Shown: positions 19,889-48,641 of the stretch, one piece after another
Position numbering within the stretch: the stretch's first letter is position 1
Layout of the letters: every line of letters starts with the position of its first letter
From: Mycobacterium paraffinicum
GTDB lineage: Bacteria > Actinomycetota > Actinomycetes > Mycobacteriales > Mycobacteriaceae
Length of the DNA: 64,000 bases
Assembly (NCBI RefSeq): GCF_001907675.1
Contig: NZ_MPNT01000026.1
Span: 14,946 to 78,945, forward strand
Reading direction: 5' to 3'
Made by a program: the position numbers and the translations under genes
The notes under the pieces: model-generated
The model's database searches: none
Seen by the model: the letters and a program-made list of their open reading frames with translations, nothing else
Told to the model about the DNA's origin: nothing

Positions 19889-19908
19889 TTCGGGACTTCC
19901 GCCCCTAC
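19889..19908 (+). promoter_or_regulatory. DosR-type box A, upstream of the DUF1876-HPF operon
   Basis: TTCGGGACTTCCGCCCCTAC matches the first ten bases of the DosR consensus TTSGGGACTWWAGTCCCSAA and keeps GGGAC-N4-G-N-CCC throughout. Its centre is about 43 bp upstream of the ATG at 19942, the position expected for an activator touching RNA polymerase if that transcript is leaderless. Confidence 0.68.
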
Positions 19909-19941
19909 TGCGGCCCCGCCGCGCAATGGTCGCATCTGGTG

Positions 19942-20223
19942 ATGACGAAGAACGACGACGCCACCAAGGCCTGCCACATCGACGTGCTGGTCGAGGAGCG
20001 CGACGAAAAGACGCGGGCGAAGGCGCGACTGTCCTGGCAAGGCAAGACGCTCGTCGGCGTCGGCCTGGCACGACTCGACCCCGCCGACGAGCCCGTGACC
20101 GCGATCGGGGACGAGCTCGCCGTCGCCCGTGCGCTGTCCGACCTGGCCAACCAGCTGTTGGCTGCGACATCGGTAGATATTCAAGCCAGCACGCACGAGC
20201 CCGTCACGGGCCTGCACCACTGA
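19942..20223 (+). CDS. DUF1876 dormancy-associated protein (Rv1738-like)
   Basis: A 93-residue protein resembling Rv1738/Rv2632c: ACHIDVLVEERDEKTRAKARLSW, then TLVGVGLARLDPADEPVTAIGDELAVARALSDLANQLL. Rv1738 is a DosR-regulated protein with structural similarity to ribosome hibernation factors and a proposed role in translational shut-down. The frame is open from 19786, but the ATG at 19942 gives the family length and leaves box A in the promoter. The HPF-like gene follows after 12 bp, so two hibernation-linked genes are co-transcribed. Confidence 0.85.
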   Translation: MTKNDDATKACHIDVLVEERDEKTRAKARLSWQGKTLVGVGLARLDPADEPVTAIGDELAVARALSDLANQLLAATSVDIQASTHEPVTGLHH

Positions 20224-20235
20224 CCGGGGGACACG

Positions 20236-21039
20236 ATGAGACAACGACCCGATCTTCCGGCCGCCTTCGACGTCGAGGTGACGACGCGCGGCCAGTTGCC
20301 CGGGGCCGACGAATACGCGCGGACGAAGATCGGCGAGCTCGGCCACCTCTCCCACGAGCCGGTGCTGTACGCCCACGTCAAGTTGAGCGAGCACGGTGAC
20401 CCGGCGGTCGCCCGCCGGGTGATCGCGCAGGCCAACCTCGACGTCAACGGCCGGCTGGTGCGTGCGCAGGTCGAAGGCGTCACGGCGCGGGAGGCGATCG
20501 ACCGACTCGAGGCGCGGCTGCGCCGTCAACTGGAACGCGCCGGCGAACATTGGGAAGCCAAGCGCGGTGGCATGCCACGGCGCGGCCCGCACGAGTGGCG
20601 GCACGAAAGCGAGCCGACGCACCGGCCGAACTATTTTCCGCGACCGGACAGCGAACGCCGAGTCATGCGGCACAAGTCATACAGCCTGCTCACCTGCACG
20701 GTGGAAGAGGCCGCGCTGGAGATGGAGCAGCTCGATTACGATTTCCACCTGTTCACCGAGAGGAACACAGGGCAGGACAGCGTGCTATATCGCGAAGGGC
20801 CGGCCGAATACCGCCTGGCACAGGTCAATCCGGTGGCCGCGCAGGAACTGGCGCCGTTCGAATTGCCGTTGACCCTCAGCCCGCAGCCGGCCCCGCGCCT
20901 CGACATCGATCAGGCCATCGAGCGGATGAGATTGCTCGGCCTGCCGTTCCTGTTCTTCGTCGACACCGCCCGCGACCGCGGCAACGTGTTGTATCACCGC
21001 TACGACGGACACTACGGGCTCATCACACCGGCGACGTGA
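20236..21039 (+). CDS. Ribosome hibernation factor, Rv0079-like
   Basis: A 267-residue protein of the HPF/RaiA family, long form. The N-terminal S30AE-like domain covers about residues 1-105 (FDVEVTTRGQLPGADEYARTKIGELG). The C-terminal domain (about 145-265) has the ribosome-dimerisation fold with VRHKSYSLLTCTVEEAALEMEQLDYDFHLF-like features and VLYHRYDGHYGLI at the end. Rv0079 is a DosR-regulated dormancy translation inhibitor in M. tuberculosis. Co-transcription with the DUF1876 gene under box A suggests ribosome protection when respiration fails. Confidence 0.88.
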   Translation: MRQRPDLPAAFDVEVTTRGQLPGADEYARTKIGELGHLSHEPVLYAHVKLSEHGDPAVARRVIAQANLDVNGRLVRAQVEGVTAREAIDRLEARLRRQLERAGEHWEAKRGGMPRRGPHEWRHESEPTHRPNYFPRPDSERRVMRHKSYSLLTCTVEEAALEMEQLDYDFHLFTERNTGQDSVLYREGPAEYRLAQVNPVAAQELAPFELPLTLSPQPAPRLDIDQAIERMRLLGLPFLFFVDTARDRGNVLYHRYDGHYGLITPAT

Positions 21040-21063
21040 AACGCCGATAGGCCAACCGAATCC

Positions 21064-21100
21064 GCGGCGGTCCCGGCATCCCCCCGTCCGGGACCGCCGC
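21064..21100. terminator. Bidirectional hairpin terminator
   Basis: A perfect 13-bp stem (GCGGCGGTCCCGG and its complement) with an 11-nt loop lies between the convergent HPF-like gene and the acyl-CoA synthetase gene. There is no U tract, which is common for mycobacterial terminators. Confidence 0.7.
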
Positions 21101-21146
21101 CCCAAACTTCGCTCTCCTGCAACGCGAACAGGCCGGTATCGGGGCG

Positions 21147-22988
21147 TCAGGATTCGTAGAGAGCCTGGAGGCGGTCGGCGAATTTGTCGATGACCACCTT
21201 GCGCTTGAGCTTCATGCTCGGCGTCAGATCGCCGGATTCGACAGTGAATTCGCGATCGGCGATCGTGAACTTCTTGATCTGCTCCCAGCGGTTCAGTTCG
21301 GTGTTCAGGGCGTCGATGTAGCCGGCGATCAGCTGCTGTGTCTTGTCGTCGCGCGCGATCTCGGCGAACGACTTGCCCGCCAGACCGTTCTTGTTGGCCC
21401 AATCGGTAATCGCCTCGCTGTCGAGGCTCACCAGGGCGACACAGTACGGCTTGCCCTCCCCGTAGACCACGATCTCGCTCACGTACGGGCAGCAGCCCTT
21501 GAATCGCGCATCGATCGCCGACGGCGCCACGTATTTGCCCTGCGAGGTCTTGAACATGTCCTTCTTGCGGTCGGTTATCCGCAGGAATCCGTCGGCATCC
21601 AATTCGCCGATGTCGCCGGTGTGGAACCATCCGTCCCCGTCGAGCGCCTCGGCGGTGGCGTCGGGCAGGTCGTGGTAGGCGGTCATCAGACCCGGTCCCT
21701 TGAGCAAGATCTCGCCGTCGCCGGCGATCTTCACGTCGGTGGCGGGGAACGGCCGGCCGACCGTCCCGAATCGATAGGCGTTGGGGCGGTTGATAAATGA
21801 AGCGGCCGCGGTCTCCGTCAGGCCGTAGCCCTCCAGCACGATGATGCCGACGGCGTCGAACCACTGCGCGACGTCGCGGTCCAGCGCGGCCGCCGCGGAA
21901 ACGAAGAACCGCAGGCGTCCACCGAACCGTTCCCGGATGGTGGTGAACACCAGCCGGTCGGCGACCTTGTAGGCCAGCAACGACGCCCGCGAAGGCTCCT
22001 TCCCGGACTGCCGCGCCTCCGACACCTTCTTGCCGACCCCGATCGCCCAATCGAAGATCATTTTCCTGAGCCTGCCGCGCTCGGCTGCCATGTCCTGGAT
22101 GCGGGCGTGTGCCTTCTCGAAGATGCGCGGCGCCGCGCCCATGATGGTGGGTCGCAGGACGGCGAGGTTGTCGATGATCCGCTCCACGCGGCCGTCGATG
22201 GCGGTGGGGAAGCCGATCTGCAACGGCAGTGCCAACATCACCTTGCCGAACGCGTGGGCCAGCGGCAGCCAGAGGAAGTTCAGGTCGTCGGGGCCCAGGA
22301 TGCCCAGCGAATCGATCGCCGCGGCGGTGTACGTCCATGCCCCGTGCGTCAGCCGCACGCCCTTGGGCCGGCCGGTGGTGCCGGAGGTGTAGATGAGGCT
22401 GGCCAGGTGATCGGGACCGACGGCCGCGACCCTGTCGTTGACGGCATCGGGCGTGTCCGCGAGCAGTTGCTTGCCCAACAGGTCGAGTTCGGCGAGGGAG
22501 ATCGCCCAGTCGCCGTCGCCGTTGCCGTCGATCATGACGACCTTGCGGACGTCGGGCAGTTCGGCCCGGTGCTCGATCAGCTTGTCGAGCTGCGTCTGGT
22601 TTTCGGCGATGACCACCCGGCTCCCGGAATTGGCGACGATGTAGGCGACGTCGGTCGCGTTCGTCGTGGGGTACACGGTGGTGGTCGCGGCGCCCGCACA
22701 CACGATCGCGAAGTCGGCGAGGACCCACTCGTAGCGCGTCGCGGAGGCGAGCGCGACCCGGTCCTCGGGCGCGATTCCCAGCGCGATCAGCCCCGCGGCC
22801 AGGTTGTTGACTCGGTCGCCGACCTGCTGCCAGGTCACGCTGGCCCAGGTGTGGTCCTGCGGATAGCGGAAGGCCTCCGCGTTGGGTGTGGCGGCGACGC
22901 GATTGACGAACATCTGTGCCACCGAGGGCGCGCGGTTCTCGATCTTGCCGAGGTCGGGCCTCTCCATTGAGGCCAGTGGTGCATTCAT
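21147..22988 (-). CDS. Long-chain acyl-CoA synthetase (FadD15-like)
   Basis: A 613-residue ATP-dependent acyl-CoA synthetase of the ANL superfamily, closer to the bacterial long-chain ACSL/FadD15 type than to FAAL enzymes. The P-loop-like YTSGTTGRPKG (about 204-214), the EGYGLTE motif (about 387-393), DGWFHTGDIG, the hinge ITDRKKDMF, and the C-terminal catalytic Lys region TPSMKLKRKVV are present. It activates fatty acids to CoA thioesters and may feed the triacylglycerol synthase at 26483. A DosR-like box lies 90 bp upstream and a GGTATACC palindrome at 23037-23044 may hold the -10 element. Confidence 0.9.
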   Translation of the reverse strand: MNAPLASMERPDLGKIENRAPSVAQMFVNRVAATPNAEAFRYPQDHTWASVTWQQVGDRVNNLAAGLIALGIAPEDRVALASATRYEWVLADFAIVCAGAATTTVYPTTNATDVAYIVANSGSRVVIAENQTQLDKLIEHRAELPDVRKVVMIDGNGDGDWAISLAELDLLGKQLLADTPDAVNDRVAAVGPDHLASLIYTSGTTGRPKGVRLTHGAWTYTAAAIDSLGILGPDDLNFLWLPLAHAFGKVMLALPLQIGFPTAIDGRVERIIDNLAVLRPTIMGAAPRIFEKAHARIQDMAAERGRLRKMIFDWAIGVGKKVSEARQSGKEPSRASLLAYKVADRLVFTTIRERFGGRLRFFVSAAAALDRDVAQWFDAVGIIVLEGYGLTETAAASFINRPNAYRFGTVGRPFPATDVKIAGDGEILLKGPGLMTAYHDLPDATAEALDGDGWFHTGDIGELDADGFLRITDRKKDMFKTSQGKYVAPSAIDARFKGCCPYVSEIVVYGEGKPYCVALVSLDSEAITDWANKNGLAGKSFAEIARDDKTQQLIAGYIDALNTELNRWEQIKKFTIADREFTVESGDLTPSMKLKRKVVIDKFADRLQALYES

Positions 22989-23077
22989 AACGGGAATCCA
23001 TTGCTGCCGAAACGGATACCGATGACGTGGTGCACCGGTATACCGTCGATCCTGCGGAACGCGGGGGCTATGCGGTA

Positions 23078-23091
23078 GTGACGAAAGTCAC
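23078..23091. promoter_or_regulatory. DosR-like box B upstream of the acyl-CoA synthetase gene
   Basis: GTGACGAAAGTCAC is a GTGAC-N4-GTCAC inverted repeat. It matches 11 of 14 core positions of the DosR consensus and closely resembles boxes C and D. Its centre is 96 bp upstream of the ATG at 22988. Confidence 0.4.
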
Positions 23092-23125
23092 GGGGGGCGC
23101 GGGCAAACGTCCCCGGGCGCGCCGG

Positions 23126-23389
23126 TCAGTCGGCCAGGGCGATCTCGATGGACAGGCACTCACCGAGGGCGTGCGCCGCGGACCAGTCTCCTCCCAGAAC
23201 CGCGCGCTCGAGGTCGTCAACCAGCGGGCTGTGCGCGCCGAGTTCCTCCAACCAGGCGGACACGGTGGCGGGTATCTGGTGGGCGGGCACTCGGGCAACA
23301 TGTCCCTCGTGGAGGCGATCGGTCAGCTGGTAGATCCGGGCCGCGGGCCGGCGCTGTGGCCAATGCTGCCGCCACTTCGCTGTGTTCAT
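23126..23389 (-). CDS. Small hypothetical protein of the dormancy island
   Basis: An 87-residue protein that I do not recognise. It starts at an ATG 3 nt after GGGAGGGG. It has a basic N-terminus (MNTAKWRQHWPQRRPAAR) and an acidic helical remainder (TVSAWLEELGAHSPLVDDLERAVLGGDWSAAHALGECLSIEI). No metal or membrane motif is visible. The strong ribosome-binding site and codon use like that of neighbouring genes support expression. Confidence 0.62.
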   Translation of the reverse strand: MNTAKWRQHWPQRRPAARIYQLTDRLHEGHVARVPAHQIPATVSAWLEELGAHSPLVDDLERAVLGGDWSAAHALGECLSIEIALAD

Positions 23390-23718
23390 GTTCCCCTCCC
23401 CGTTTGCCTTCTCGATCCATCCGACCAGCCCCGGGGGCCCGGCCGTAGAGGCCAAGAGCACGTTCACCGAAAGGCTTTGGTCTCGCTTCCGGTCTGCCGA
23501 AGTCCCAGTCCGACAGGGTCTTTTGTCACAGCGGTCGCCTACTTCGTTCTCCCGCGACGGTGGTGCGGCTCGCGTACCGTACATCGCGAAGGACGCATCG
23601 CCACGTTACCCGTCGCGGGGCCGCTGAATTACGAAATTGGCGAGATGACCGCTTTAGCAATGGATTCGCAATCGAGGTGTGATCCGGGCCGGGGACTCGA
23701 GCTGACAGGTGGGCCGAC
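23390..23718. other. Intergenic region between divergent genes of the dormancy island
   Basis: A 329-bp stretch that separates the small gene (leftward) from the acetyltransferase gene (rightward). It contains DosR-like box C (23516-23529), a GGGACTT half-site on the minus strand at 23500-23506, and GGGACTCGAG at 23692-23701 just before the acetyltransferase start. I see no further open frame that can be defended. Confidence 0.5.
23516..23529 (-). promoter_or_regulatory. DosR-like box C
   Basis: On the minus strand the sequence reads GTGACAAAAGACCC, one mismatch from GGGAC-N4-G-N-CCC and one base from box D. It lies in the divergent region between the small protein gene (start 23389) and the acetyltransferase gene (start 23719). 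Confidence 0.42.
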
Positions 23719-24702
23719 GTGAGGGCTGTCCGCGCCGAAGAACTCGTGGCGCTGCCCATGTTCGCCGAGATCCCGGCCGAGGACCTCAAGACGTTGGCCG
23801 CCCTTCTCGAGCCCCTGCACGCGGTCGCCAGCGAGGTCCTGATGCGGCAGGGGGAACGAGCGGAGTCTTTCGCGATCATCGCGTCCGGCCGCATCGGGGT
23901 GCGGCACGTCGGACCCAAGGGCAGGGTCACGGTCACCGAGCTGTCGTCCGCGACGATCGTCGGTGAGATCGCATTGCTGCGGCGCGCCACCAGGACGGCA
24001 ACCGTGACGGCCGTGGAGGACGTGCGCGGGTACATCGGATACGGCGCCGCCTTCGACCGCATGCTGACCGTGCCGGTCATCGCCGACCGGATGCTGCGCA
24101 CCGCGCGGCAGCGGCTGGCCGCATACGTCGCCCCGATCCCGGTGACGATCAAGGACGGCGCCGTGCTCTCGCTGCGCCCCGTCCTGCCCGGTGACGCCGA
24201 GCGGTTCAAGAGCAGCGGTTCGTTCTCCCGGGAGACCCTGTACCGGCGCTATCAAGGGGGCACTCCCACCGATGCGCGCCTGACCTATCTCTTCGAGGTC
24301 GACTACGTCGACCACTTCGTGTGGGTGGTCACCGACGGCGTCGCAGGCCCGGTCGTCGCGGACGCCCGCTTCGTTCGGGACCAGGACGATCCCGCGTCGG
24401 CAGAGGTCGCGCTCACCGTGGCGGACGGCTACCAGGGCCGCGGCATAGGCACGCTGCTGCTCGGCGCGCTCGCGGTCGCGGCGCGCGTCGACGGCATCAA
24501 GCGATTCCACGCCCGCGTGCTGTCCGACAATCCACCCGCGCGCGCGTTGGGCGACAAGGTGCACGCGCAGTGGGCGCACGAGGAGCCGGGTGTGGTCACC
24601 ACGACGGGGGAGATCCCGCGCTATCGGGATCTACCCCTCGATCGCGTTGTGTATCAACAGATCCGGCAGGTGGCCCGTCAGGTGATCCACGCGTTCGACT
24701 AG
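23719..24702 (+). CDS. Cyclic-nucleotide-dependent protein lysine acetyltransferase (Pat/Rv0998-like)
   Basis: A 327-residue fusion of a CRP-like cyclic-nucleotide-binding domain (about 1-135; GERAESFAIIASGRIGV and IVGEIALLRRATRTATVTA, the phosphate-binding cassette) and a GNAT acetyltransferase domain (about 155-310; ALTVADGYQGRGIGTLL is the acetyl-CoA loop). This is the unique mycobacterial design in which cAMP releases autoinhibition and the enzyme acetylates acyl-CoA synthetases such as FadDs and Acs. An acyl-CoA synthetase gene lies only 730 bp away, a plausible substrate. GTG start, weak ribosome-binding site. Confidence 0.92.
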   Translation: MRAVRAEELVALPMFAEIPAEDLKTLAALLEPLHAVASEVLMRQGERAESFAIIASGRIGVRHVGPKGRVTVTELSSATIVGEIALLRRATRTATVTAVEDVRGYIGYGAAFDRMLTVPVIADRMLRTARQRLAAYVAPIPVTIKDGAVLSLRPVLPGDAERFKSSGSFSRETLYRRYQGGTPTDARLTYLFEVDYVDHFVWVVTDGVAGPVVADARFVRDQDDPASAEVALTVADGYQGRGIGTLLLGALAVAARVDGIKRFHARVLSDNPPARALGDKVHAQWAHEEPGVVTTTGEIPRYRDLPLDRVVYQQIRQVARQVIHAFD

Positions 24703-24726
24703 CGGCGCCCGCCGGGTTGGGCGCGT

Positions 24727-24996
24727 CTACTCGCCGTGCTTGCTCACGGCGTGTCCGGCGCTGCGGACCACGCTGCGGAAGAACTCCATGCGTGCGGTGA
24801 CCAACTCGTCGGCCAGGTCCAGGGCGGCGTCGACGACGATCTTGCGTCGTGACTGCTCGGGAAGCACGGGGCTGATCTGGTCGACGAACTTGCGGACCGC
24901 ATCGATGGCTTGCTTGCGGCCGGTTTCGACGGATTCCAGCACGTCATCGGACAGTTCGGCCCATCGCGGTTCGGTCTTTTGCGGTGCCTCGGTCAT
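24727..24996 (-). CDS. Small helical hypothetical protein
   Basis: An 89-residue, predicted all-helical protein with no recognised family. Its acidic first half (MTEAPQKTEPRWAELSDDVLESVETG) is followed by amphipathic helices (AIDAVRKFVDQI, KIVVDAALDLADELVTARMEFF). GAGGAG lies 8 nt before the ATG. It is convergent with the acetyltransferase gene, and DosR-like box D lies 74 bp upstream of its start, so it may be a hypoxia-induced accessory protein. Confidence 0.68.
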   Translation of the reverse strand: MTEAPQKTEPRWAELSDDVLESVETGRKQAIDAVRKFVDQISPVLPEQSRRKIVVDAALDLADELVTARMEFFRSVVRSAGHAVSKHGE

Positions 24997-25069
24997 GATC
25001 GGACTCCTCGGGAGCGTCTGAGGTGCTTGTGGCGGCCCCGACGTTACGACCGCCCGGCGGCTGGCGCGA

Positions 25070-25083
25070 GTGACGAAAGACCC
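25070..25083 (+). promoter_or_regulatory. DosR-like box D
   Basis: GTGACGAAAGACCC matches GGGAC-N4-G-N-CCC with one mismatch and shares its first ten bases with box B. It lies between the divergent small protein gene (start 24996) and the alpha/beta hydrolase gene (start 25209). Confidence 0.42.
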
Positions 25084-25155
25084 TTCGCGCCTGGTCATAG
25101 GGCCCGGGCCGGTTGCGTATCATCGGCTTGTCGGGCAAGGACTTTCGTGAACGCG

Positions 25156-25175
25156 ACCGGGCCGTAAGTCCCTAA
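25156..25175 (+). promoter_or_regulatory. DosR-type box E and leaderless promoter of the hydrolase/TAG synthase operon
   Basis: ACCGGGCCGTAAGTCCCTAA has a complete right half-site (AGTCCC followed by TAA) and 12 of 14 core positions of the DosR consensus. TAGTTT at 25197-25202 ends 6 nt before the ATG at 25209, implying a leaderless transcript. The box centre then lies near -43, the same distance as box A from its gene. Confidence 0.6.
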
Positions 25176-25208
25176 CGCGCCGTTTCGAGCGCCTGCTAGT
25201 TTGCCACC

Positions 25209-26468
25209 ATGGCCGTACCGACCGACGACGACGGTGTTTCCCGACGCCCTGGCGGCGATTTGCCGTTGAGTCCACCCGCGGGTGTCGGCTTGAGCGGCGC
25301 CGTCAAACCGTTCACGAGCACCGGTCGCTACCTGGCCGAATCGTGGCGCGACTACCTCGGTCAAGCGCCCGACGAGCTTCCGATCGCGCGACCCACCCTG
25401 GCCCTGGCGGCGCAGGCGTTTCGCGACGAAGTCGTCCTGATGGGACTCAAGGCGCGACGCCCGGTCAGTCGCCCCGAGGAGTTCGCGCGCATCACGGACG
25501 AGGTGGTCGCCGGGCTGACGTTCTACGGCGACCGCGGATGGCTCGACCATCCGAAGAGATTCTTCGGCGCACCCCCGCCGCTGTCGGACGTCACCGTGCA
25601 CGGGGTCAAAAAGGGGAGGCGATCCTTTTACCGCATGTCTTTCGATAGCGGGTACCTGCCGCGGCCGGGCGAACCCGGCGCGGATCGGTGGATGAGTTAC
25701 ACCGCAAATAACCGCGAGTACGCCCTGTTGTTGCGCCATCCGCAACCCCGGCCCTGGCTGGTCTGTATACACGGAACCGAAATGGGCCGGGCCGCATTGG
25801 ATCTCGCGCTGTTCCGGGCCTGGCGGTTACACGCGGACCTCGGACTGAACGTCGTCATGCCCGTCCTGCCGATGCACGGGCCACGGGCCCGGGGCCTGCC
25901 GAAGGGTGCGGTGTTTCCGGGGGAGGACATCTTCGACGACGTGCACGCGACGGCGCACGCGGTGTGGGACATCCGGCGGTTGCTTTCCTGGATACGCCGC
26001 CAAGAGCCGGAATCCCAGATCGGCTTGAACGGCCTGTCGCTTGGCGGCTATATCACCGCGTTGGTCGCCAGCCTCGAAGCCGGGCTGACCTGCGCGATCC
26101 TCGGTGTACCGGTCGCGGACCTGGTCGGGCTGCTGAGCCGGCACTCCGGGCTTGCCCCCGAAGATCCCCGCCGCCAGACGATCGAACTCGCGGCGCCCAT
26201 CGGGCGGATGACCTCGCCCCTATCGCTTGCCCCGCTCGTCCCCATGCAGGGTCGCTTCATCTACGCCGGACTCGCCGACCAAGTGGTGCATCCCCGCGAG
26301 CAGGTGATCCGCCTCTGGGAGCACTGGGGCAAACCCGAAATCGTCTGGTATCGCGGCGGTCACACGGGATTCTTCCGCGCGCGACCGGTACAGCGGTTCG
26401 TCGAGGCGGCGCTGCAACAGTCGGGCCTGCTGAATGGGGCCGTGGCTCGGCGCGACCGGCCCGCTTAG
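25209..26468 (+). CDS. Alpha/beta hydrolase
   Basis: A 419-residue protein with a long N-terminal extension (about 170 residues of unknown fold) before an alpha/beta-hydrolase core. The core has the oxyanion region CIHGTEMGRAAL (about 186-197), the nucleophile elbow GLSLGG with Ser near 280, an Asp near 357 (GLADQVVHP) and the catalytic His in YRGGHTGFF (about 389). It is followed after 14 bp by the wax ester/triacylglycerol synthase gene, so it is probably a lipase or esterase linked to storage lipid turnover. Leaderless start under DosR-type box E. Confidence 0.82.
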   Translation: MAVPTDDDGVSRRPGGDLPLSPPAGVGLSGAVKPFTSTGRYLAESWRDYLGQAPDELPIARPTLALAAQAFRDEVVLMGLKARRPVSRPEEFARITDEVVAGLTFYGDRGWLDHPKRFFGAPPPLSDVTVHGVKKGRRSFYRMSFDSGYLPRPGEPGADRWMSYTANNREYALLLRHPQPRPWLVCIHGTEMGRAALDLALFRAWRLHADLGLNVVMPVLPMHGPRARGLPKGAVFPGEDIFDDVHATAHAVWDIRRLLSWIRRQEPESQIGLNGLSLGGYITALVASLEAGLTCAILGVPVADLVGLLSRHSGLAPEDPRRQTIELAAPIGRMTSPLSLAPLVPMQGRFIYAGLADQVVHPREQVIRLWEHWGKPEIVWYRGGHTGFFRARPVQRFVEAALQQSGLLNGAVARRDRPA

Positions 26469-26482
26469 TCGCGGAGGCCGAA

Positions 26483-27877
26483 ATGAATCCCCTGGACCCA
26501 CTGGACGCGGCGATGATGACCGCGGAGTGGGTGTCCAGCCCGATGCACGTCGGTGCCGTGCTGATCTTGTCGCCGCCCGACGACGCCGGGCCCGACTACG
26601 TCGACGACCTGTATCGGAGGACGCTCGCGGGGAACGATCCGATCGACCCCAGGCTGCGGAAATACCCACACCGCGGTGTGGACACCGGCGGCATGTGGGT
26701 CTGGCGGCACATGAATCCCGTTGACGTGAGCCAACATTGCCAGCGCCGCACGGTGTCCGGTGACGGGTTCTGGCGGCTGATCGGGGAGCTGGACGCCCTG
26801 CGGCTGGACTCGAGCCGGCCGATGTGGATGTCGTATCTGATCGACGGCCTCGACGACGGCCGCTTCGCCTTCTACATCAAGGTGCACCACACCGTGACAG
26901 ACGGCGTGGCGGGTTTCCAGATGATCACCGACGCGCTGAGCGACGATCCCAGCCGCCGGTCCATGCCACCGTTTTACGCCGACCGTCGTCCCGAGCCCGC
27001 GCCGTCGCCTTCGGCCGGGCTGGTGTCCCGCCTGGTCGCGCCGCTGCGGTCGCTGACGGACGCGGCGGCGTCGGGTGCGGGGCTGATCGGCAAGGTGGCC
27101 ACCGGTGAAATCGCCACCGTGTTCGACGCCCTGGTGGGGCACACCACCGCGTTGCCGCTCGGGGCGCCCTTCACGCGGTTCAACGGGCGCCCCGGCCCCG
27201 AACGCGCGGTCGCCGCCGGCAGCTGGGCCAAGGAGCGCATCCACGCCGTGCGAGAGGCGGCCGGCGTGACGGGCAACGACGTGCTCACCGCGATGGCGGC
27301 CGGGGTGGTGCGGCGGTGGTTGGGCGATCGCAGGGAATTGCCCGAGCGGCCTTTGGTGGCCGCCTGCCCCATCACGGTCCGCGATCACGAACATGATTCG
27401 CCAGATGACCAGCATGGCAACAAGTTCGGGCTGTGGATGTGCCCGTTGGCCACCGACCTGGACGACCCGCTGGCCCGGCTGGACGCGATCCATCGATCGA
27501 TGTCCGAGGGGAAGCGCTGGGTGGGCAAGCGCGGAGCGGCGGCGTCGCTGCTCACGAACGCGGGGAGCATCGCCGCGACGGCGATCGGTCCGCTGCTGCC
27601 GTTCACGCCGAAAGTTCGAACCGGGTACAACCTGCCGATCTCGCATGTCCGCGGTCCAGCGGCCGAAATGTATTGGAACGGAGCGCGAGTCGAGGAGATG
27701 TACCCGGTGTCGACGGTCTACGACGGTCATGCGCTCAACATCACGACGTGCTTGTACGCCGACCGGGTCGGGTTTGGTTACGCCGCGGGCCTCGACGTGG
27801 TGCCCGACATCGAGAAGTTCATACCGCTGACAGAGGAGTGCCTCGCCGAGCTGGAGGACGCTCTCGAGGTGGGCTGA
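26483..27877 (+). CDS. Wax ester synthase/acyl-CoA:diacylglycerol acyltransferase (Tgs-type)
   Basis: A 464-residue WS/DGAT enzyme that acylates diacylglycerol or fatty alcohols with acyl-CoA. The catalytic HHxxxDG motif is His135-His136 to Gly141 (HHTVTDG). The N-terminal MNPLDPLDAAMMTAEWVSSPMHVG segment and the C-terminal YNLPISHVRGP/MYPVSTVYDGHALNIT segments follow the family pattern. Mycobacteria make triacylglycerol through such enzymes when oxygen is lost. The ATG at 26483 follows GGAGG by 8 nt; the frame is open far upstream inside the hydrolase gene but that part is a shadow. Confidence 0.93.
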   Translation: MNPLDPLDAAMMTAEWVSSPMHVGAVLILSPPDDAGPDYVDDLYRRTLAGNDPIDPRLRKYPHRGVDTGGMWVWRHMNPVDVSQHCQRRTVSGDGFWRLIGELDALRLDSSRPMWMSYLIDGLDDGRFAFYIKVHHTVTDGVAGFQMITDALSDDPSRRSMPPFYADRRPEPAPSPSAGLVSRLVAPLRSLTDAAASGAGLIGKVATGEIATVFDALVGHTTALPLGAPFTRFNGRPGPERAVAAGSWAKERIHAVREAAGVTGNDVLTAMAAGVVRRWLGDRRELPERPLVAACPITVRDHEHDSPDDQHGNKFGLWMCPLATDLDDPLARLDAIHRSMSEGKRWVGKRGAAASLLTNAGSIAATAIGPLLPFTPKVRTGYNLPISHVRGPAAEMYWNGARVEEMYPVSTVYDGHALNITTCLYADRVGFGYAAGLDVVPDIEKFIPLTEECLAELEDALEVG

Positions 27878-27933
27878 CGGCGGGAGCAACGGTCTGGCCG
27901 TCGTGGTGGGAACCGGCGGAATCGCCGGTGTGG

Positions 27934-27992
27934 CCGAGCCTGTAAATTTGCAGACCCGCACTCGCAGTTTGTCTGCGGATTTACAGGCTCGG
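27934..27992. terminator. Two-part hairpin between convergent genes
   Basis: An outer 14-bp stem (CCGAGCCTGTAAAT at 27934-27947 with ATTTACAGGCTCGG at 27979-27992) and an inner 6-bp stem (GCAGAC with GTCTGC) enclose a 15-nt loop. It can end transcription of the TAG synthase operon and of the opposite small gene, whose TAA stop at 27981-27983 lies inside the right arm. Confidence 0.7.
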
Positions 27993-28235
27993 TGCGGTCC
28001 GAAACGCCAGCCGCGAGGCGCGGCCCGCGTGGCCCATGATGCGCTCCAAGACGGTGTTGGACAGGTCGCCGTCGTCGGCGACGCGAGCCAGGCCGCGGCG
28101 CCGCAGGAAGGTGTCCAGGCGTCGATCGGGAGACCAGTCGGCATAGATGGGGCCGAGATACCGCGACTCCAGGAACTCGCAAGCCAGGGCGTCCACGTCA
28201 GAGTCGGTCAACATCAACGGTGGGATACCACCCAT
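27981..28235 (-). CDS. Small hypothetical protein with C-terminal basic tail
   Basis: An 84-residue protein without a recognised family, starting MGGIPPLMLTDSDVDALACEF and rich in Arg near its end (RRRGLARVADDGDLSNTVLERIMGHAGRASRLAF). AGGAG lies 10 nt before the chosen ATG (28235) but only 1 nt before the alternative ATG at 28244, so the shorter form is preferred. Its stop lies in a terminator stem shared with the convergent TAG synthase operon. DosR-like sequences lie upstream (28323-28385). Confidence 0.65.
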   Translation of the reverse strand: MGGIPPLMLTDSDVDALACEFLESRYLGPIYADWSPDRRLDTFLRRRGLARVADDGDLSNTVLERIMGHAGRASRLAFRTAPSL

Positions 28236-28371
28236 AACCGCCATGCTCCTTTGTTCAACCGGAACCGCATGCCAAATTACGTGAGAAGGCCCCGGTATTC
28301 CGTCACGCGGAGATTGCGGATCGGGCCCAAAGTCATCACCGCCGACCGGCCGCGGCGATTGCCGCACGCCG

Positions 28372-28385
28372 GGGTCAAACGACCC
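28372..28385. promoter_or_regulatory. DosR-like box G upstream of the M50 peptidase gene
   Basis: GGGTCAAACGACCC is a GGGTC-N4-GACCC inverted repeat with one mismatch from GGGAC-N4-G-N-CCC. It lies 85 bp upstream of the peptidase gene (28470), and a weaker sequence, GGGCCCAAAGTCAT, is found 49 bp before it at 28323-28336. Confidence 0.45.
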
Positions 28386-28469
28386 TAGTAGCAACCGAAG
28401 CGTCGCACTACCTTCGGACACGAGGCGGCGGGCGGACCGCCTGCCCGCAACGACTTTGGGAGGTTCGAG

Positions 28470-29630
28470 GTGCGCGATGCGATCCCGATTGGGCGGATCG
28501 CCGGCTTCCCGGTGAAGGTCCACTGGAGCGTGCTGGTGATCCTGTGGTTGTTCACCTGGAGCCTGGCCAGCATGCTGCCCGGCAGCGTCAAGGGGTATTC
28601 ACCCGCCGCCTACTGGGTGGCCGGGGCGTGCGGCGCGCTGGTGCTGTTGGCGTCGCTGGTGGCGCACGAACTCGCGCACGCCGTCGTCGCCCGCCGCGCC
28701 GGGGTGCCCGTGGGCAGCGTGACGCTCTGGTTGTTCGGTGGAGTCACGACGCTCGGCGGCGAAGCGAAGACGCCGACGGCGGCCTTCCGGATCGCGATCG
28801 CCGGCCCGGCCACCAGCCTTGCGTTGGCGGCCGTCTTCGGCGGCCTGGTCGCTGTCCTGCCGGTGGTGGGTGTATCACCGATCGCGATCGGGGTCGCGTC
28901 GTGGTTGGCCGGCATCAACATGCTGCTGGGCCTGTTCAACCTGCTGCCCGGCGCACCGTTGGACGGTGGGCGGGTGCTGCGGGCATTCCTGTGGCGCCGC
29001 CACGGCGACAGCGTGCGCGCCAGCATCGGCGCCGCGCACGCCGGGCGGGTGGTCGCCTTCGTCCTGATTGGCTTGGGGCTGGCCGAGTTTCTGCTCGGCG
29101 GTCTGGTGGGTGGGGTCTGGTTGGCGTTCATCGGTTGGTTCATCTTCGCCGCCAGTCGCGAAGAGGAGACGAGGATTTCGACCCAGCAGATGTTTTCCGG
29201 GGTGCGCGTGGCCGACGCGATGACCGCCCGCCCGCACACCGCGCCCGGATGGATCACCGTCGACGATTTCGTCCAGCGCTATGTGCTCGGCGATCGCCAC
29301 TCCGCGTACCCGGTCGTCGACCAGAGCGGGGCGATTTCGGGTCTGATCACGTTGCGCCAGTTGCGTGACGTCGCGCCCGATCGCCGCGCCACCGCCACCG
29401 TGGGGGAGATCGCGCAGCCGCTGCCGGAGGTGCCGTCCGGCGCACCGCAGGAGCCGCTCACCACCCTGCTGGAGCGGATGGCCCCCGCCGGTCCGCGCAG
29501 CCGCGCCCTGGTGTTCGACGGCGGCCAGGTGGTCGGCATCGTGACGCCGACCGATGTGGCCCGGCTGATCGAGGTCTACCGGCTCGCTCACCCCGAGGGC
29601 GCGAATTCGGCTCCGGCTCAAAGCATTTAG
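28470..29630 (+). CDS. Site-2 protease family membrane peptidase with CBS domains (Rv2625c-like)
   Basis: A 386-residue M50 metalloprotease. Transmembrane helices surround the zinc motif HELAH (about residues 66-70) and the second motif [12 protein letters not shown] (about 163-174) that supplies the Asp ligand. The C-terminal 130 residues form two CBS modules ([20 protein letters not shown] and [17 protein letters not shown]), which usually sense adenine nucleotides. Rv2625c of M. tuberculosis has the same architecture and belongs to the DosR regulon. GTG start with GGGAGG 6 nt upstream. Confidence 0.9.
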
Positions 29631-29724: not shown

Positions 29725-29877
29725 ATGACGTGCGTGATCGGGAACGCGTGCATCGACGTGATGGGACGAGACGCCCCCCTCGGGTCACCGGGCGGCGCGG
29801 CCAAGTTGGATCCGATAGGTGTAGACACTCCTTTGCTGGCCGTTCACCCGGGGGCCGGCCAAGCGGAAGGAGTGTGA
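29725..29877 (+). pseudogene. Ferredoxin FdxA remnant with internal in-frame deletion
   Basis: A 50-codon open frame whose first 13 residues (MTCVIGNACIDVM) resemble the start of mycobacterial seven-iron ferredoxin FdxA (MTYVIGSECVDVM) and whose remainder (APLGSPGGAAKLDPIGVDTPLLA) resembles its C-terminal tail. The central part, which should hold all but one of the cluster-binding cysteines, is absent; only Cys3 and Cys9 remain. It cannot bind the two Fe-S clusters. The reading frame is intact and ends 7 bp before the regulator gene, so it may now act as a short leader coupled to that gene. FdxA of M. tuberculosis (Rv2007c) is DosR-regulated, which fits this island. Confidence 0.7.
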
Positions 29878-31370: not shown

Positions 31371-32312
31371 ATGCTTTCGACGTCCTGGTCGAGGGAATTC
31401 GGGCTGCGGGTACCGATCGTCAACGCGCCGATGGGCGGGGTTGCCGGCGGCCGGCTGGCGGCGGCGGTCACCGCGGCCGGCGGCCTGGGCATGGTGGGCA
31501 TGGGCAGCGCGGCGACGAGGGAACTGCTGAGAACCCAGCTGCAGCACGTGCGGGGGACGTTCGGCATCGGCTTGGTCGATTGGGTGATGCGCACCGAGGC
31601 GGGCCTGTTCGAGGACGCCCTGGCGGCGCGTCCGGCCCTGCTGTCGGTCAGTTTCGGGACCGACTGGTCGTGGGTCGCGAAGGCCCACGACGCCGGAATC
31701 CCCACCGCCACCCAGGTATACGACGGCCCCGGGGCTCGCCAGGCGGCCGATGCCGGCGTCGACATCCTGGTGGCCCGCGGCTCGGAGGGCGGCGGGCACG
31801 GTGAGACGACGCTGGCGACGCTCCCGTTGCTGGACACCGTGTTGGACGCCGTCTCGGTGCCGGTCCTCGCCGGTGGCGGCGTGGCGTCGGCGCGCAGCCT
31901 GGCCGCCGTGCTGGCCGCCGGGGCGAGCGGAGCGTGGGTGGGCACCCGCTTGGCCGCGTGCCCGGAGGCGCTCTCCGGTGACGGCAGCCGCCGCGCGCTG
32001 ATCGCGGCCCGGGCCACCGACACCGCGGTCACCCGGGCCTTCGACGTCGCCCAGGCCCGGCCGTGGCCGGCGCGATTCCCGTCGCGGGTGCTGACCAACG
32101 ATTTCGTCGAGCGCTGGACCGGCAAGGAGGACGCGCTCAACCCGCAGGCCTGCGACGAACTCGAGGCCTCCATCGCCGCCGACGACCGCCGGGTCGCGCC
32201 GGTGGATGCCGGTCAGGGCGTCGGGATGATCCGGGACGACGCGTCGGTGGCCGAGGTCATCGACGAAATGTGTTCGGGCGCAGAACGTTTGCTGAAGGCC
32301 TGGGGCTCGTAG
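31371..32312 (+). CDS. Nitronate monooxygenase-family FMN protein
   Basis: A 313-residue TIM-barrel protein of the 2-nitropropane dioxygenase/nitronate monooxygenase family, which uses FMN and O2 to oxidise alkyl nitronates. The N-terminal APMGGVAGGRLAAAV, the mid DILVARGSEGGGHGE (catalytic His region) and LAGGGVASARSLAAVLAAGASGAWVGTR (FMN phosphate site) stretches are typical. It begins 4 bp after the cupin stop and may form an operon with it; a real ribosome-binding site is not obvious. Confidence 0.88.
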   Translation: MLSTSWSREFGLRVPIVNAPMGGVAGGRLAAAVTAAGGLGMVGMGSAATRELLRTQLQHVRGTFGIGLVDWVMRTEAGLFEDALAARPALLSVSFGTDWSWVAKAHDAGIPTATQVYDGPGARQAADAGVDILVARGSEGGGHGETTLATLPLLDTVLDAVSVPVLAGGGVASARSLAAVLAAGASGAWVGTRLAACPEALSGDGSRRALIAARATDTAVTRAFDVAQARPWPARFPSRVLTNDFVERWTGKEDALNPQACDELEASIAADDRRVAPVDAGQGVGMIRDDASVAEVIDEMCSGAERLLKAWGS

Positions 32313-48583: not shown

Positions 48584-48641
48584 CGAGTGTGGGGCCTATG
48601 GACGAATTCGGGGCGGATCACGTGCCTAGGGCCCACACTCG
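48584..48641. repeat. Intergenic inverted repeat between pdxT and yebC
   Basis: CGAGTGTGGGGCCTA (48584-48598) pairs with TAGGGCCCACACTCG (48627-48641) with one mismatch, around a 28-nt loop. The right arm ends ACACTCGGCG, the same ten bases that end the unit of the 32324 repeat, so both may belong to one dispersed element. Confidence 0.65.

Follow-up and report, generated by a model that had tools for sequence, protein, structure and literature searches.

A predicted DosR-regulated dormancy cluster carrying fatty acid activation and triacylglycerol storage genes in Mycobacterium paraffinicum

A stretch of 64,000 nucleotides from Mycobacterium paraffinicum (contig NZ_MPNT01000026.1, positions 14,946 to 78,945; hereafter the window) contains a run of approximately ten genes, here called the island, that on its sequence is very probably a DosR-regulated dormancy cluster. 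Control of the island by DosR is well supported in silico by the matrix scores of its predicted DosR boxes, by their location, by their conservation in related mycobacteria, and by the identical recognition helix of the DosR proteins of these relatives. Transcript borders, DosR binding, induction and enzyme substrates are what we infer from these data.

In the proposed mechanism, low oxygen or nitric oxide would lead the DosS/DosT sensors to phosphorylate DosR, which would then bind seven boxes and turn on at least six transcripts. RafH and an Rv2632c/Rv1738-like small protein would park ribosomes, while the acyl-CoA synthetase FadD would activate fatty acids that the hydrolase and the WS/DGAT enzyme would store as triacylglycerol (TAG). 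The island would further contribute a CBS-domain membrane protease and a second cyclic AMP (cAMP)-responsive lysine acetyltransferase, a paralogue of Rv0998.

Predicted DosR boxes and their conservation

Candidate sites were scored with a 19-bp DosR matrix derived from 101 distinct sites in the intergenic DNA of 18 non-island loci, which are other DosR clusters of relatives. Seven sites in the window score 13 bits or more, and all of them fall within the intergenic DNA of the island, 1,210 bp in total (eight positions pass the threshold, two of them overlapping), against a chance expectation of 1.66 such sites per 64 kb calculated from 50 non-island loci. At the same threshold, 1,000 dinucleotide shuffles of the island intergenic DNA gave a mean of 0.029 positions and a maximum of one, 175,382 bp of non-island intergenic background gave five matches, and the other intergenic DNA of the window (8,839 bp) gave none. 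A preliminary description of this DNA had placed DosR-type boxes at six positions (19889, 23078, 23516, 25070, 25159, and 28372); all six are among the seven sites. Weaker DosR-like sites lie at 48590 and 48962 (11.6 and 12.0 bits).

The non-island training loci hold paralogues of island genes (orfX at 57.5% identity, orfZ at 51–52%, and the ribosome hibernation promotion factor, HPF, at 60%), and a common origin of the promoters used for training and those of the island was considered as a source of the scores. It was rejected because, with a stricter matrix for which stretches near homologues of island genes were masked from training (67 sites left), the island sites still make up seven of the top eight in the window, at ranks 1–4 and 6–8.

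A stringent M. smegmatis DosR consensus, GGGACTTNNGNCCCT, has been published (PMC6448022). Window positions 19892–19906 match it exactly and, when up to two mismatches are allowed, five matches at four places are found in the window, every one in an island promoter region. The Park consensus, TTSGGGACTWWAGTCCCSAA, was also tried; with up to three mismatches it matches in one of six genomes and was set aside as too strict.

Conservation was assessed in 26 loci of relatives (L001–L026, all of which were used), a box being defined as a site of at least 12 bits no more than 250 bp upstream of a gene. After 39 of 208 gene-by-genome cells had been left out, the gene being absent or the sequence too short, a box was present in 158 of 169 tests, which are not independent of each other as divergent gene pairs share sites. 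Boxes precede every copy of the small protein gene (20/20), orfX (22/22), orfY (19/19), and orfZ (18/18), and nearly every copy of fadD (23/24), pat (25/26), and the hydrolase gene (22/24). In all seven regions the box columns are better conserved than other upstream columns, with identities of 0.82–1.00 versus 0.59–0.88 (window and L001–L013, 9–14 rows per region). All 19 bases of box 1 are unchanged in 14 of 20 relatives, its columns showing an identity of 1.00 compared with 0.69 in the remaining upstream DNA; the corresponding values for box 6 are 0.93 and 0.59. A site of at least 10 bits is located 34–36 bp upstream of the hydrolase start in 22 of 24 loci (box 5), and a site of at least 12 bits, reaching 20.8, is found 70–79 bp upstream of orfZ in 16 of 18 relatives (box 6), the exceptions being L004 (10.7 bits) and L001 (none among the matches listed).

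Exact matches to GGGACTTNNGNCCCT were counted in ten genome entries representing nine genomes (G001 and G007 are the same; G001 has the contig coordinates of the genome of L003, Mycobacterium sp. E1747, and the two are counted as one). There are 38 matches, one to six per entry, versus three in all when the pattern is reversed (one in G003 and two in G010, the other eight entries having none), and a match to GGGACTTCCGCCCCT lies at the island's own coordinates in eight of the ten. Among ten other exact-consensus loci looked at, several are near pfkB-, DUF1918-, nitroreductase-, HPF-, or TGS-like genes.

The regulator itself, a LuxR family protein, is encoded in all 26 relatives' genomes that carry the island. 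Of 32 places found to encode it, 30 loci were retrieved, and all 30 share the recognition-helix segment FLAEKTVKNYVSRL without a difference; this segment equals peptide 175–188 of M. tuberculosis DosR (PMC5861037). In the relatives, a second DosR cluster on another contig contains dosR, dosS, genes for universal stress proteins (USPs), a nitroreductase gene, a second HPF gene, and the paralogues of orfX and orfZ noted above (for orfX, on L112). In G001 this cluster comprises L111 (2226–9114) and L112, with both paralogues. The idea that the regulon forms one block including fatty acid activation and storage is thus well supported in silico for the combination of these functions with ribosome hibernation, but does not hold for the regulon as a whole.

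Alternative explanations for the boxes

Several results weigh against the interpretation as DosR boxes. The five near-consensus matches in the window equal the chance expectation (5.58), and only their placement is special. The loose pattern used in the preliminary description, GGGAC-N4-G-N-CCC, is under-represented rather than enriched in the window (409 matches with up to two mismatches versus 616 expected). With the masked-training matrix, rank 5 is taken by a site at 31552 in a coding region, which at 13.5 bits is level with the middle of the seven. The box of the M50 protease gene is the most weakly conserved (9/16), G010 has one real consensus match versus two reversed ones, and of the ten other consensus loci one match lies inside a 490-residue reading frame (L100) and another beside genes without a dormancy link (L105). 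The counts for the loose pattern and the published consensus would suit an explanation in which GC-rich DNA yields such palindromes by chance and these were picked out because of the names of the adjacent genes. That explanation is scarcely credible, given that every site in the 64-kb window that reaches 13 bits is confined to 1.2 kb of island promoter DNA whose shuffled versions hardly ever produce one; conservation across 26 genomes, and the contrast between the two types of Pat gene described below, refute chance as far as sequence can. The loose pattern alone cannot separate real from chance sites. It has an exact match at 21090–21103, where the RafH and fadD genes converge; this site scores below 10 bits and is probably due to chance.

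It is very unlikely that the boxes are read chiefly by a different regulator of the NarL family, or by a DosR paralogue, rather than by DosR itself. Two DosR-like proteins (E ≤ 1e-80) are encoded in six of the 26 island genomes (L019 and L022–L026), and a related island in G153 (L131, 2802–5638) contains a DosR-like gene (43%) adjoining a DosS-like gene (60%), a pair that may answer a different signal. Against this, the 13 genomes nearest to the window (L001–L013) have a single DosR at the same E-value, and the matrix was trained on loci that include the clusters holding dosR and dosS. A further proposal, that some boxes, above all that of fadD, are sites for the cAMP receptor protein (CRP), is very unlikely. 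The CRP consensus, GTGA-N6-TCAC, does overlap the fadD box in the window and in L001, L002, L003, L014, and L015. However, both arms are kept in only five of the 23 relatives with a fadD site, whereas the DosR score is at least 15.3 bits in all 23, and in the kansasii group the box reads GATGACTTTGGTCCCTA. The CRP reading of the fadD box was rejected on this lack of conservation.

Genes of the island and its acetyltransferase

The features of the island are listed in Table I. Hidden Markov model or PDB sequence matches bear out the identities suggested earlier for the Rv0079-like protein, the acyl-CoA synthetase, the Pat-like protein, and the TAG synthase, and identify an M50 protease with CBS domains.

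Table I. Genes and predicted DosR boxes of the island (window coordinates)
Feature	Coordinates	Strand	Remarks
DosR box 1	19890..19908	+	16.2 bits; core GGGACTTCCGCCCCT; upstream of Rv2632c/Rv1738-like and RafH gene pair
Rv2632c/Rv1738-family small protein, 93 aa	19942..20223	+	PF08962, 100 bits
RafH-type ribosome hibernation promotion factor (Rv0079-like)	20236..21039	+	PF16321, PF02482
FadD-type acyl-CoA synthetase, 613 aa	21147..22988	-	PF00501, 1.2e-73
DosR box 2, upstream of fadD	23075..23093	-	17.3 bits
orfX, 87 aa	23126..23389	-	
DosR box 3, divergent orfX/pat intergenic region	23514..23532	+	14.4 bits
Pat-like cAMP-binding protein lysine acetyltransferase	23719..24702	+	Rv0998 paralogue
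orfY, 89 aa	24727..24996	-	
DosR box 4, between orfY and hydrolase gene	25068..25086	+	15.3 bits
DosR box 5, 34 bp upstream of hydrolase-TAG synthase pair	25156..25174	-	13.7 bits
Alpha/beta hydrolase, ABHD18-like	25209..26468	+	PF09752, 22.9 bits (cut-off 21)
WS/DGAT (TAG synthase family), directly 3' of hydrolase gene	26483..27877	+	TIGR02946, 330 bits (cut-off 310)
orfZ, 87 aa	27981..28244	-	
DosR box 6, upstream of orfZ	28320..28338	-	13.3 bits; absent from the list in the preliminary description
DosR box 7, upstream of M50 protease gene	28369..28387	-	14.8 bits
M50 site-2 protease with CBS domains	28470..29630	+	PF02163, 1.5e-21; PF00571
fdxA remnant	29725..29877	+	tblastn with FdxA of relatives

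The small protein had been described as Rv1738-like. Its family is correctly named, but its nearest relative is Rv2632c (PDB entry 2fgg, 147 bits) rather than Rv1738 (4wpy, 87 bits); PF08962 had no match in 14 control genomes. The RafH-type HPF, which by its position would share a transcript with the small protein, matches RafH (8whx) with 382 bits over residues 12–266. For FadD the best NCBIfam model is FadD11, at a score below that model's cut-off, and for the WS/DGAT protein PDB sequence matches are 6chj and 7nxg. The M50 protein we take to be a homologue of Rv2625c.

The three short reading frames are less readily classified. No Pfam or NCBIfam family was matched by orfX; it has 113 homologues, and all those with an organism name are mycobacterial. 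Presumably it is Rv2628-like. There are 339 homologues of orfY and 283 of orfZ (the best 120 of each are listed), and among the matches listed none of the three proteins is given a function, although one UniRef row for orfY reads "Antitoxin". The AlphaFold model of orfY has helices at residues 9–44 and 48–87 (mean pLDDT 72.6). As a guess from this model, a two-helix hairpin with amphipathic stretches, encoded beside the TAG synthase operon, could coat lipid droplets in the manner of a phasin.

The fdxA remnant retains only the two ends of the gene (36 residues at 83% and 15 residues at 73% identity), the iron-sulphur middle having been lost, while relatives have a full-length fdxA at the corresponding place. 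It exists as the preliminary description stated, but lies outside the region 19889..28385 and has no DosR box. FdxA was rejected as a DosR-boxed member, the best upstream score being 2.2 bits in the window and 1.8–6.2 bits in three relatives with fdxA. On its 3' side are a helix-turn-helix gene, a gene for a 153-residue protein without a family, and a cupin gene, followed farther right by threonyl-type tRNA synthetase and glycosyltransferase genes, the latter presumably pimA. The left flank contains an EthR-type TetR gene and dioxygenase and lyase genes.

The Pat protein of the island contains PF00027 and PF00583 domains and matches PDB entry 4ava with 338 bits and the NCBIfam model for acetyltransferase Pat (NF058543) with 484 bits (cut-off 460). 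Its counterparts in two strains named M. scrofulaceum, E3039 and DSM 43992, are 96% and 88% identical to it, respectively, which points to a source species of that group. The nearest genome compared, G001, shares 22% of 31-letter words with the window. The cyclic-nucleotide motif GEIALLR..RTATV and the GNAT blocks are common to island Pat and the Rv0998 clade. In a Pat tree, island and Rv0998-type copies (27 and 48 rows) are split by a branch with 100/100 support. Both copies are present in 13 of 13 close relatives, in which the second copy is 52–54% identical to island Pat, and orthology of island Pat with Rv0998 was rejected on these grounds. A DosR box lies upstream of 25 of 26 island Pat genes (the exception is L021) and of none of the 48 Rv0998-type genes. 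Six further rows (L027–L032) were counted in neither group; four branch off at the base of the island side, L027 stands beside the kansasii group, and L030 is on the Rv0998 side. All six lack both a surrounding island and an upstream box, so the island Pat clade is slightly wider than the island.

In M. tuberculosis, Rv0998 acetylates DosR at K182, and deletion of Rv0998 raises expression of DosR targets (PMC5861037). A paralogue under DosR control could thus exert feedback on DosR, or have FadD as its target. Pursuing this analogy, it is tempting but doubtful to propose a loop in which DosR would induce island Pat, which, gated by cAMP, would acetylate DosR K182 and so limit or end the dormancy response, also tuning FadD. 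Weighing against such a loop, K182 acetylation in M. tuberculosis falls under hypoxia, so that induction of the enzyme at that point would have to be accounted for by timing or by a different substrate.

Related loci and biological context

The Rv2610c–Rv2632c region of M. tuberculosis presumably has the same neighbours as the island, which on that basis appears to be the counterpart of the Rv2623–Rv2632c DosR cluster. The earlier contrast between a regulon scattered in M. tuberculosis and a single block here was thus overstated, as a DosR cluster seems to occupy the same place in both. Like the M. tuberculosis cluster, the island has an Rv2632c-like gene and presumed Rv2628- and Rv2625c-like genes, and the islands of relatives add USP genes and a baeRF gene, which we take to be Rv2629-like. 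Unlike it, the island builds in FadD, the Pat paralogue, the hydrolase, and the TAG synthase, and the window is without a baeRF gene or an intact fdxA. In M. tuberculosis, DosR motifs precede Rv2623, Rv2625c, and Rv2629 (PMC2867773).

Two further comparisons concern the storage and acetylation genes. The M. tuberculosis dosRS block with Tgs1 spans Rv3126c–Rv3134c and, as in the island, a TAG synthase is under DosR control (here predicted); the island differs in being without dosRS, which in relatives are in another cluster, and in having its own synthase adjoining a hydrolase. Island Pat shares domains and the cyclic-nucleotide motif with Rv0998 and M. smegmatis Pat, but falls in a separate clade and has DosR boxes. 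Among slow-growing non-tuberculous species, M. avium has DosRS-dependent hypoxia genes, its DosR regulon being described as 13 genes with no TAG synthase under DosRS (PMC11876180). In contrast, the island includes a DosR-boxed TAG synthase gene. Expression groups are described in PMC1884158; further sources are PMC12919924, PMC5069765, PMC3388012, PMC5322544, PMC2275270, and PMC13284343.

A survey of 148 genomes from the genus found island Pat in 16, of which 15 have a hydrolase gene within approximately 4 kb (G120 is without). Eleven further genomes with a hydrolase match were chosen for closer inspection: five carry DosR-boxed genes for FadD, the hydrolase, and WS/DGAT and are without Pat (L129, L134–L137), five have the hydrolase and boxes elsewhere in the region (L130–L133, L139), and one has no box (L140). 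Gene content also varies among the 26 islands of relatives, for which counts are lower bounds since a simple open reading frame picker was used and loci were cut at 10 kb. Additions comprise a baeRF protein in at least 17, a 930-residue acyl carrier protein-ligase-acyltransferase protein in at least 13, a flavodoxin in at least eight, HspX in at least five, a second WS/DGAT in at least four, fdxA, ribonucleotide reductase, and USP genes in at least three each, and DUF1918 in at least two. The 930-residue protein, with acyl carrier, AMP-ligase, and acyltransferase domains, is encoded between pat and orfY in L005 (11170–13956) and is not found in the window. An hspX probe in 396 genomes gave no M. 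tuberculosis-like match and one partial match at 89%. Judged by gene content, the window holds a reduced version of a DosR locus that is rich in genes and variable among relatives.

The locus is known in kind; the combination of FadD, a TAG synthase, and a Pat paralogue with a DosR box was not found in the literature searched (a limited set, mostly titles and abstracts), nor did that set yield hypoxia RNA-seq of an island-bearing species or a DosR-controlled Pat paralogue. For certain slow-growing non-tuberculous mycobacteria, the scrofulaceum and kansasii groups among them, the island points to a DosR programme that has come to include, at a single locus, fatty acid activation, TAG storage, and a duplicated acetyltransferase responsive to cAMP. 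Two questions thereby become amenable to experiment: does DosR govern its own acetylation, and how do the signals of hypoxia and cAMP converge on lipid storage?

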